From positions 1 to 64,000 of the forward strand of contig SIAQ01000008.1 of NCBI GenBank assembly GCA_009697105.1: a stretch of DNA of 64,000 nt, read 5' to 3'. The stretch comes from Gemmataceae bacterium (GTDB lineage Bacteria; Planctomycetota; Planctomycetia; Gemmatales; Gemmataceae). The translations under genes were made by a program, and so were the position numbers. The notes beneath the pieces are model-generated. The model was not told the origin of the DNA. It saw only the letters and a list, made by a program, of their open reading frames with translations, and searched no databases. Shown in pieces: positions 21,279-26,697 of the stretch. Position 1 is the first letter of the stretch; each line of letters starts with the position of its first letter.

Positions 21279-22205
21279 TTACGTCCCGCGTTTGACCGAC
21301 GGCGGCGTGTCGAGGATGTCGAGAAATAGCCGAGCGGGAATCGGCAAAACGCGGCGGCGGTCCCAAACGACGAGCATATCGCGCGTCAGGTTCAGACCGG
21401 CGATCTCGAGAGTATGCAGCGTGCCGGTGGCGATTTCCTTCTGCACCGCGCGGGTGGAGAGGACCGCCACGCCCATGCCGCGCTGGACCGCTTTCTTGAT
21501 CGCTTCGTTGCTGCCGAGTTCCAATGCGATGCGGAGATCGTGGAGCTTTTGGCCTGCCTTCGCGAGTTCCTGTTCGAGACAGGAGCGCGATGCCGACCCG
21601 CTCTCGCGCACGATCAGCGGTTCGCTGGCCAATTGCTTGAGTGTTATGCGTTTTTTGCCGGCCAAGGCATGTTTCGCGGAGACGATCAGCGCCAATTCGT
21701 CGCTGCCGAACACGCGAAATTCGAGGTTTGGGCTATCGCTGCGGCCACCGACCATGCCGAGGTGTACGTGGCCTTGTTCGACGTGGCCGAGCACTTCACG
21801 GCTATCGGTGATGCTGGCGCGGACTTGCACGTGCGAATGTTTTTCTTGAAACTTCGCTAACAGATCCGGCAACAGGTGTTCGCCAGGAACGGAGCTTGCC
21901 GCGAGCAATAACTCGCCGGTAAGCGGTTTGACGAGTCCCGTAATTTCGCCGATGGCTTCGCGGTGTAGGGCAATGATTCGCAATGCGTAGCCGTAAAGGC
22001 AGTGACCGGCGTCGGTCAGCAACACATGCCCGCCCTGGCGATGAAACAGCGAGCTTTTGAGCGATTTTTCCAGTCCCTGGATGCGCTGGCTGACTGCGGC
22101 TTGCGTCAAGCCGAGCGCTCGAGCAGCGCTGGTGAAACTGCTTAACTCGGCGGCCTTGACGAAGGTTTCGAGGTGAGGCAAATTGTCAGTATCGCTGGCG
22201 GCCAT
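21279..22205 (-). CDS. LysR-family regulator, CysL/selenium-metabolism-like
   Basis: A 308-residue LysR-type activator/repressor. The N-terminal winged helix (FVKAAELSSFTSAARALGLT, then AAVSQRIQGLE) is followed by a substrate-binding-protein-like sensor domain. The linker (LLLAASSVPGEHLLPDLLAKF) and ITDSREVLGHVEQGHVHLGM resemble the subgroup annotated as selenium-metabolism-associated LysR regulators and CysL. That is a judgement from memory, not a search. It lies 264 bp downstream of the candidate selenoprotein gene. I chose ATG 22205; a TTG at 22238 would add 11 residues. Confidence 0.88.
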   Translation of the reverse strand: MAASDTDNLPHLETFVKAAELSSFTSAARALGLTQAAVSQRIQGLEKSLKSSLFHRQGGHVLLTDAGHCLYGYALRIIALHREAIGEITGLVKPLTGELLLAASSVPGEHLLPDLLAKFQEKHSHVQVRASITDSREVLGHVEQGHVHLGMVGGRSDSPNLEFRVFGSDELALIVSAKHALAGKKRITLKQLASEPLIVRESGSASRSCLEQELAKAGQKLHDLRIALELGSNEAIKKAVQRGMGVAVLSTRAVQKEIATGTLHTLEIAGLNLTRDMLVVWDRRRVLPIPARLFLDILDTPPSVKRGT

Positions 22206-22258
22206 GACGTGTTCGCTCGAATGCCTGGTTACGGCCAATACCGGCGGGATCGTCGTAT

Positions 22259-22469: not shown

Positions 22470-23063
22470 TTACTTGGGAGCTTCCGTCTTCGCTTCCTTC
22501 TTCTTGGCAGTGGTCAGGATCTTCGGAATGTCGGAGACAATCGCGTCGATCGCTTTGCTGGTCAGCTCGCCCTTTTTGAAGGTGTGGTTGGCAGCAACTT
22601 TACGCTGATTGTACAGTACGACGGTGATGTCCGCATCCTTCGAGACGCCGTACTTGTCCGGACCGGCCGGGTTGTCGATCGACAACACGATGTTCTTGAG
22701 GCCTTCCTTCGTGGCAAGGGCCTTCAGCTTGTCTTCGAGCTTGTCGTCGTCGGTGCAGAACACGACGAAGCTGCCCATCTTGGCGGATTTGTTCTTGGCG
22801 GTCTCGGCGTCAATTTTCTTGACCAAACTGGTCAAGGAGTCGCTGACTTCGCGCGCGAAGATCATAGCGACCGGGTTGCCACCGTTGCTTCAGACGAGGC
22901 AATGCTTTTTGCCAGCCTGGCCACCCGTTACATTCAACGGATGGAACGGCCCTGGAAGGCTTTTGCCCGTTTGCGGTCCCGACTGCAGCGCACCACCGGC
23001 CGTCACGCTGGCAACAGCCAACATGGCGACGGCGAACGCGCCCAATGCCATACGATGTTTCAT
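22470..23063 (-). CDS. Candidate thioredoxin-like selenoprotein with in-frame TGA (CxxU)
   Basis: If the TGA at 22890-22892 is read through, this is one 197-residue exported protein. It has a signal peptide (about 1-24), then LPGPFHPLNVTGGQAGKKHCLV, with U at 58, and then SNGGNPVAMIFAREVSDSLT and a thioredoxin-like remainder ending in a lysine-rich tail. The reading frame is identical on both sides of the TGA. C55 and position 58 form a CxxC-type redox motif with the second cysteine replaced. AGGAGGTG (23072-23079) gives a strong start at ATG 23063. A SECIS-like hairpin lies downstream of the TGA. The alternatives are a nonsense mutation (Cys TGC to TGA) or a sequencing error. The function is probably thiol redox or peroxide handling in the periplasm, by inference. 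Confidence 0.65.
22839..22871 (-). promoter_or_regulatory. Candidate bacterial SECIS hairpin
   Basis: In the mRNA, GUCGCU (22871-22866) pairs with AGCGAC (22844-22839). Inside that stem, CUUCG pairs with CGAAG around a CGCG loop (22855-22852). The apical loop starts 34 nt after the UGA and has G in its second position, both within the bacterial SECIS consensus as I recall it. The inner sequence is GC-rich and self-complementary, so chance is possible. Confidence 0.45.
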
Positions 23064-23252
23064 TGTGGAAACACCTCCTGTAAAATATAATGGAGAATCT
23101 ACTATACCGAACCATCGGCAAGATTCTTCCCTCAGAATAAGACGAACGCGTGCGCCCGGAAATTCGATTTCCATTAATAGCTAACGGACACGTCATAAGT
23201 AATTCTTATACGGCATGGCATGCATCAGGCGTTCCAGCATTCCGCCCGCAGG

Positions 23253-23633: not shown

Positions 23634-23698
23634 TAATCAATTCATCAATCGAATAATTCCGCTTGAGCGCTACCCCGCACGCGGAGGATGTCAAGCAT

Positions 23699-24475
23699 AT
23701 GATCGTTGTTGAGGAACTTACGAAACGATTTCCCCTACCCGGCGGCGACGAAGTGCTCGCCGTCGATCGGCTCTCGTTCTCCGTTCAGCCCGGCGAAGTG
23801 TACGGCTTGCTCGGCCCCAATGGCGCGGGCAAGACGACGACGCTGCGCATGCTGCTCGGCCTACTCCAGGCGACCAGCGGGCAGGCCTCGATCGCCGGCT
23901 TCGGATCCAATCGCCATCCGGATGAAGTGAAACGCCGCGTAGGCCTGGTCTCGGCGAACGCGGGACTTTACCCCGCCCTTAGCGTGCGCGAGCTACTGCT
24001 GTTTTTCGCCGAGCTTTATAGCGTTCCCGATGAAGACGCATTGAAGGAACTCCAGCACCTGACCGAGCTACTCGGTCTGGCGGACCTGCTCGATCGGCGT
24101 TGCGCGAACCTTAGCACCGGGCAGCGCCAGCGTGTCGTGCTCGCGCGGGCGCTGATCCATCAGCCGCCGGTGATGTTGCTCGACGAGCCGACGTTGGGGT
24201 TGGATGTCCTGGGTTGTCAGATCATCAACGAATATATCAATCATCTTCGGGAGGAAGGCAAAGCCGTCATCCTTACGACGCATCATCTCGACGACGCAGA
24301 ACGGCTCTGCACGCGTCTGGGGCTGATGCATCAGGGCCGACTTGTCGCCGATGGCACGTTGGCGGAACTCCGCGAACGCACGGGATGTGCGAGTCTGATT
24401 GACATGTTCCTGAAACTCTCCAATGTCGGACCGTCGTTCATGCGTCGGCAAGGTGATGAGGCAATGCGAACATGA
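23699..24475 (+). CDS. natA: ABC transporter ATPase, NatA type
   Basis: A 258-residue ATP-binding subunit of an ABC exporter. Walker A is GPNGAGKT (39-46), the signature is LSTGQRQRV, Walker B is [12 protein letters not shown], and the switch histidine is in TTHHLDD. The Q-loop-proximal NANAG-type region is consistent with the Na+-exporter/ABC-2 class. I chose ATG 23699, preceded by GGAGG at 23683-23687. Its stop overlaps the next start by 4 bp (ATGA), so the ATPase and permease are coupled. Confidence 0.92.
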
Positions 24476-26697
24476 CCAAACCTGAAAGCACCATTGGACG
24501 TCAATTATCGGCGACATCACCTTTCCGTGCCCAGCGCGTCTTTCGCCTGGTGCGCAAAGAATTGCGCGAAATCCTGCGTGATCGACGGACGATTCTGACG
24601 CTGATCGCGATGCCGTTGATGCTCTACCCGATCATGAGCGTGGTGTTTCAGCAGGTAACGATGGCGCGGACGTTGGATCGCGATACAGGACCGGTTTTCC
24701 ATTTCGCTGCCTTGACGACTTTGGAACGCGAAGTGTTTACGCGGCGTCTTCGCCCGCGATTATCGTCCAAGCGATTTCTTCACCCTGGCGAGGCGGCACC
24801 GAAAAAAAAGGACGGCGACCCGTCGCAGGTGCCGATTGTTCGCTGGTGGCCAAGCCCGGAGCGCGATCCGGACACAGCGGAGAAACGCCAAGAACTGCTT
24901 ACCGAATACGAGACGGAAATCGCCGAAGGGAAGTTGGACCTGATCGTGCTGTTCCCGGAGGCGATTGCCGACCCGGACGCGAAATCGCGCATCCCGAGCG
25001 AGGACCGGCATCTCTCATGCAAGCTGATTTTCTCACCGAACGCATCGACCAGTTTAGCCGCCCTGGCGTGGGTTGAGCGCATACTGGCCGAGGCGGATCG
25101 GTGCGATTTGCAGGAACGCCTGGGCATCCCCGACCTGCCACGACGAATCACGTTGTTGACGCCGGAGCGAGTCGCGATCAATCCGGGCGGGCGGACCGGC
25201 ATGGTGTCGCTCGCCGCCTTGGTTCCGCTCATCCTGATTCTGATGACGATCACCGGTGCGGTCTATCCCGCTATCGACTTGACCGCCGGCGAGCGCGAGC
25301 GCGGCACGTTGGAAGTGCTCGTCGCGTCGCCAGTGCCTCGCTTCGAACTTCTGACGGCGAAATATTTCTCGGTGCTCACGGTCGCCGTGATGACTGCCGT
25401 CGTCAACCTCGTGTGCATGACGATTACCATCACCTGGAGCAACCTCGGGGCAGCGCTGTTTGGCGGCGGCGGGCTGTCGCTTGGCGCGCTGGCGCAGATC
25501 TTCGCGTTGCTCATGTTGTTCGCCGGCTTCTTCTCGGCGGTGCTCTTGAGTCTTACCAGTTTCGCCCGCAGCTTCAAAGAAGCGCAAGCGTATCTCATTC
25601 CGTTGATGCTGGCGTCGCTGGCGCCGGGCGTGATGGCGATGATGCCAGGGATGAAGTTGCAAGGCATCTTTTCGGTGCTGCCGCTCGTCAACATCGTGCT
25701 GATGGCCCGCGACGTGTTCGAGGGCGGCGTCGAGCCGATGGCAGGCGCGATCGTCGTCTTCACGACGCTTCTGTACGCCCTGGCAGCCCTGAGCCTGGCC
25801 GCGCGGGTGTTCGGCGCCGAAAGCGTTCTCTACAGCGAGCAATCGAGCTGGGGCGATCTGCTTCGGCGACCGAGCGAGGAGCAATCCAGGGCCACGATCG
25901 CCATGGCGCTCTGGTGCTTGGCGGTGATGGTTCCAATCCAGTTTGCGATTAACGCGATCATGATGTCGCTCGGGCCGGTCGATGGCTACGTGGGTGTCGT
26001 CGTCACGATCTTCGCGAATCTTGTGCTGTTCGGCTGTGTGCCGGCGGCGTTCCTGTATTTTGGCCGCGTCCGAATAGCGTCCGGCCTGGGAACGAATCTG
26101 CCCCGCCCGGCGATGTTGGCAGCGGGCTTATTGCTCGGTGCGTCGCTTTGGCCGATCGAACTTTATCTGCTCGAAAACCGATCCGCGGAACGCATGCTTG
26201 AGCTGCGCAGCCAGGCCGCCGGTGTGGCTGAAATCCTCCAGGCGATGCGCACGCAGGTTGGCTGGTTTATCCTGGCGATCGTAATCGTGCCAGCAATTTT
26301 CGAAGAGTTGTTCTTCCGCGGCGTCTTGTTTCGTGCGTTAGCTGATCGTGCTGGACCTCTGGTCACGATCGGCGTCAGCGGAATATTGTTCGGCCTGACC
26401 CACGTAATCTTCGGAGGGCCACTCGGGCTGGAACGGCTTGGCCCCAGTACTATGCTCGGCCTCATCCTGGCCGCCGTCTGCTGGCGTTCTGGTAGTGTTT
26501 GGCCGAGCCTGATCCAGCATATCACCCATAATACGATTCTGATGATCGTGCTGAAAAAATACCGAGGCGAGCTGCACGGCATTCCCTGGTATTGGCTCAA
26601 CTGCGGGCTCGCAGGCACCGTTGTTGCGGCGGCGCTGTTCTGGTATTTCGGCAAGTCGCCGGGCGTTTTGCAGGTGGATAAGCACAAGCAAACCTGA
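24472..26697 (+). CDS. ABC-2 permease fused to a CPBP intramembrane protease (NatB-CPBP)
   Basis: A 741-residue two-part membrane protein. The N-terminal half is an ABC-2/NatB permease: a transmembrane segment near 40-60, a large extracytoplasmic domain to about 235, then a bundle of helices with [18 protein letters not shown]. The C-terminal part (about 530-740) is a CPBP/Rce1-type protease with EELFFRG (about 612-618), FGLTH and QHITHN, the expected catalytic glutamates and histidines. The fusion recurs in planctomycetes. The substrate of either half is unknown, and peptide maturation coupled to export is a reasonable guess. Confidence 0.9.

Follow-up and report, generated by a model that had tools for sequence, protein, structure and literature searches.

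A probable selenoprotein family with a CxxU motif and a predicted thioredoxin-like fold in Planctomycetota

The window, the whole 64,000-nt stretch of DNA analysed here (contig SIAQ01000008.1 of a Gemmataceae bacterium), carries on its minus strand a gene with an in-frame TGA (Table 1). Translation of the minus strand with the TGA read as U gave MKHRMALG...KKHCLVUSNGGNPVAMIFARE...KTEAPK, with a single internal in-frame TGA at the place of the second cysteine of a C-x-x-C/U motif. Under translation table 11 the gene is split into a 94-aa ORF ending at the TGA and a 131-aa ORF after it. A preliminary description of this DNA had claimed one frame intact on both sides of the TGA, a strong ribosome-binding site, and a signal peptide, and it gave no strand. 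The 197-residue translation bears out the single frame, and an AGGAGG ribosome-binding site was found 10 nt upstream of the ATG. Residues 1-23 resemble a signal peptide in their make-up, and the protein would then be exported.

Table 1. Positions of the gene, its parts, and the neighbouring regulator gene in the window
Feature	Position	Strand	Details
Probable selenoprotein gene	22470..23063	(-)	197 aa with Sec58; ATG 23063-23061, TAA stop 22472-22470
In-frame TGA at residue 58, probable selenocysteine codon	22890..22892	(-)	Homologues aligned there: TGA 68, TGC/TGT 64
Cys55 of the CLVU motif, paired with Sec58	22899..22901	(-)	Invariant in the family alignment
Shine-Dalgarno AGGAGG	23074..23079	(-)	Read from the sequence; identical in the nearest relative (L021)
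Putative N-terminal signal peptide, about residues 1-23	22995..23063	(-)	Sequence make-up; low pLDDT at residues 1-23
Bacterial SECIS-like two-part hairpin	22838..22872	(-)	Outer arms 22866-22872/22838-22844, inner arms 22856-22860/22847-22851, loop 22852-22855
LysR_Se-type regulator gene	21279..22238	(-)	Next gene downstream, same strand; NF040786 260.7 bits, cut-off 250

The search with the window protein covered 392 phylum genomes, 102 order genomes, and GTDB contigs, and homologues were matched in 59 of the phylum genomes and 101 of the order genomes. Extraction was limited to motifs with C at the first and C or U at the fourth position, and therefore other residues at the fourth position could not be counted. 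The extracted homologues comprised 73 entries with TGA and 66 with TGC or TGT at that position, a ratio that is not a frequency because the loci were partly picked for a TGA reported by the search. After removal of repeats, 68 distinct TGA proteins and 64 distinct Cys proteins shared one aligned position, and the first motif Cys was invariant in the family alignment. Four further TGA forms were read separately, beyond the 73 entries. TGA forms occurred in 47 of the 102 order genomes and in 17 genomes outside the order. The two homologue checks proposed in the preliminary description, for Cys at the TGA position and for conservation of the TGA in relatives, thus both came out in its favour. Since independent genomes have TGA at the same codon, a sequencing error was excluded.

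The frame stayed open for at least 119 codons past the TGA in all 73 TGA entries. Downstream of the TGA, dN/dS between the window gene and six relatives was 0.31-0.35, and by these estimates this part of the frame is under purifying selection. On a tree of 132 proteins built with the site masked, the Sec and Cys states required 8 changes vs about 44 for shuffled labels; the state is therefore inherited by clade, with some switching.

Several genomes carry more than one member of the family. One locus (L155, G429:C12) has one Sec and one Cys copy in tandem, another (L177, G437:C127) holds a tandem pair of TGA-bearing copies, and on the contig of L061 (G044:C214) the search gave two adjacent TGA-containing matches, one of which was extracted. 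The genome of the window itself has three CxxC paralogues, L056 (C155), L057 (C164), and L058 (C104), with the motifs CLYC, CYIC, and CFVC. A further relative in this genome, L059 (C162), lacks the motif and was set aside.

The 63 nt from the TGA onward can fold as a two-part hairpin, with 34 nt intervening before the apical loop. The hairpin that had been proposed at this distance from the UGA is thus present, but folded as a single sequence it did not differ significantly from its shuffles (z -0.33), and it becomes convincing only in comparison. For this comparison, a TGA set of 46 distinct sequences, whose proteins shared at least 45% identity with that of the window, and a Cys set of 37 sequences chosen in the same way were used. 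The null was generated by permutation, in which sequences sharing an amino acid at a site swapped their synonymous codons, leaving all protein sequences fixed. In the TGA set, 78% of the cells of the outer pairs were formed vs 69% after permutation, a value reached by 0 of 400 permutations, and the mean folding energy was -14.8 vs -11.6 kcal/mol (z -11.8). The Cys set showed no excess hairpin, with 50% pairing vs 52% permuted and an energy z of -1.2. The tested structure was the fold of one TGA sequence, which favours the TGA set in the pairing measure, whereas the energy measure is independent of this choice. The permutation leaves shared ancestry in, a caveat that applies equally to the Cys set, in which no signal appeared. 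A codon-usage test, run on a set that differed in part, agreed (mean z -1.25 for Sec and -0.59 for Cys forms, p = 0.007). Consequently, the protein sequences of the TGA homologues do not account for the full strength of their hairpin, and the Cys homologues have no such excess. The SECIS register was not uniform: the outer arm sum was 76 in the window clade, and the distant classes preferred a register about 3 nt shorter, which counts against the hairpin.

A check of the genome for selA, selB, selC, and selD had also been suggested, and it succeeded in part. The selA, selB, and selD genes were found in the window genome, all above curated cut-offs. The tRNA-Sec model, anticodon-stem patterns, and the 3-kb selC stretch of the nearest relative gave no selC match in the window assembly, which is 92% complete and consists of 187 contigs. 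Because the flanks included in that 3-kb stretch also had no match, the absence of selC is likely an assembly gap. A tRNA-Sec was found in the nearest relative, which carries L021 with a protein 98% identical to that of the window, and in four others; in the phylum sample, most other genomes with the TGA form had selC as well. Of the 59 homologue-bearing genomes, 18 were TGA carriers, and 17 of these had selB or tRNA-Sec, vs 10 of the 41 non-carriers (Fisher p = 4e-7, ancestry uncorrected). The tRNA-Sec of the nearest relative (L115 1500-1594) adjoins a gene at 1694-2965 that reads like a tyrosine recombinase, which suggests an integrated element at its selC.

The preliminary description had read the TGA as selenocysteine, and the exchange of UGA with Cys, the hairpin specific to TGA forms, and the presence of selA, selB, and selD uphold this reading. 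We put the probability that the TGA at residue 58 encodes Sec in a genuine selenoprotein gene at about 0.96. The split into two ORFs under table 11 and the insignificance of the single hairpin would fit a true stop, whether in a pseudogene or between two ORFs, or an error of sequencing or assembly. Conservation refutes this account and leaves it an exceedingly small probability: 68 distinct proteins, drawn from independent assemblies, share this TGA, at least 119 open codons follow it in all of them, and dN/dS after the TGA is about 0.3. Insertion of another amino acid at the UGA, by near-cognate readthrough or local recoding, would agree with the failure to find selC in the window's own assembly, and is nevertheless very improbable: the exchange partner is Cys, selB and tRNA-Sec are much commoner in TGA carriers than in non-carriers, the hairpin exceeds the coding need only in TGA forms, and the neighbouring regulator scores as a member of a selenium-associated family.

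It is also conceivable that Sec is real and that the CxxU pair serves as a binding site for a metal, or for some form of selenium or mercury, without thiol-disulfide chemistry. The place of the motif outside the canonical active-site loop of thioredoxins speaks for such binding, as do several listed Sec proteins that have been linked to metals (PMC13188914). Against it stand the predicted fold, shared with ResA, DsbE, Tpx, and Prx, and the commonness of Cys forms, as in redox families, and we consider it unlikely.

The AlphaFold2 model, computed with 88 aligned members, had a pTM of 0.81; pLDDT was about 95-98 for residues 31-180, and about 97 in the core. The best PDB matches by Foldseek were thiol-disulfide oxidoreductases, DsbE and ResA among them, with E-values of about 1e-7 to 1e-6, and peroxiredoxins were among the other matches. 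The predicted fold is thus thioredoxin/ResA-like. Thioredoxins keep their CxxC where the helix after the first core strand begins, and in ResA too the CxxC comes after the strand. In the model of the window protein, the motif at residues 55-58 precedes the first core strand (65-70), and the helix at residues 75-90 begins without a Cys. By the order of elements, the CxxU is therefore not at the N-terminus of the helix after the first core strand, and its position in space would be before that strand. The thioredoxin-like character assigned in the preliminary description agrees with the predicted fold, but the CxxU lies off the usual active-site place in the order of elements.

In the selenocysteine reading, SelB carrying Sec-tRNA would be placed by the hairpin just past the UGA and would insert Sec at residue 58. 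The product would be an exported protein with a predicted thioredoxin/ResA/peroxiredoxin-like fold, most likely an extracytoplasmic thiol (selenol) oxidoreductase, in which the Cys55-Sec58 pair would alternate between dithiol-like and selenenylsulfide states. We regard this last step, the redox chemistry of the pair, as reasonably likely; it is a guess, because the CxxU is not where thioredoxins put their active site. A relocated redox centre, with the CxxU before the first core strand, a conserved FAR(E/D) in place of the classical active-site loop, and Sec and Cys isoforms under the adjacent LysR_Se regulator, is a tentative idea that we hold at somewhat below even odds. If true, the active-site arrangement would differ from that of the redoxins compared. 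Why the CxxU sits at so uncommon a point of the predicted fold is a structural question open to testing.

The family was compared with known systems. It shares with ResA, TlpA, DsbE, and CcmG (PDB 1st9, 3gl3, 4nmu) the thioredoxin fold (TMq about 0.51-0.59), apparent export, and a CxxC-type motif, but it has no Pfam or PDB sequence match and carries FAR(E/D) where their loop usually lies. The Redoxin and AhpC-TSA families (PF08534 and PF00578) gave weak matches to 2 of 88 members each, with best E-values of 0.0014 and 0.0031, and Prx and Tpx structures were among the fold matches of the model; the window protein itself had no match to these families, and no PxxxTxxC motif was seen. Known bacterial CxxU selenoproteins (Trx7/PDZ NF041199, SelW-like proteins, and the CC/Se motif family NF041239) share the CxxU and have Cys homologues, but none gave a profile match to the window family. 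No family member reached a specific model in Pfam or NCBIfam, and a PDB sequence search gave no credible match. None of the 119 families of a 2026 review (PMC13188914) was recognisable as the window family by name, motif, or domain. A 2016 paper lists selenoproteins of two planctomycetes (PMC4807772), and the family may therefore have been mentioned earlier. Retention of the TGA at one position in more than sixty related genomes points to a real selenoprotein family, which was not found in the family libraries and the published list compared; we take it as a new family of a known kind.

The family is spread through Planctomycetota, and the searched annotation libraries contain no model of it; pipelines therefore likely call two fragments or shortened genes. 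Its members provide further evidence for active Sec use in this phylum, and the clear Sec and Cys sister forms allow study of why Sec is kept or lost.

The LysR gene next to the selenoprotein gene had been described as resembling selenium-associated regulators, which its NF040786 score confirms. In four further species of the genus, a gene of this type likewise lies downstream of the TGA gene (locus pairs L021/L126, L022/L127, L023/L128, and L025/L129), and no such neighbour was seen in the remaining fetched loci, many of which had short flanks. A role in regulating Sec genes has been proposed for LysR_Se, whose archaeal form, HrsM, was reported to repress the genes of Cys-form hydrogenases when Se is available (PMC5322559). 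The window neighbour is a member by score, but here it adjoins a selenoprotein gene itself, an arrangement seen in one genus. The selenoprotein gene is a natural candidate target of this regulator and may be controlled by it. Since the genome encodes Cys-motif paralogues (L056, L057, and L058), a Se-dependent Sec/Cys switch is a reasonable idea.

Searches of the whole window against Rfam, and searches for plasmid and PHROGs sequences, gave no match. At positions 23663-26697 of the window, the gene of an ABC transporter ATPase precedes that of a fusion between a permease and a CPBP-type protease, which scores above the NF041647 cut-off.
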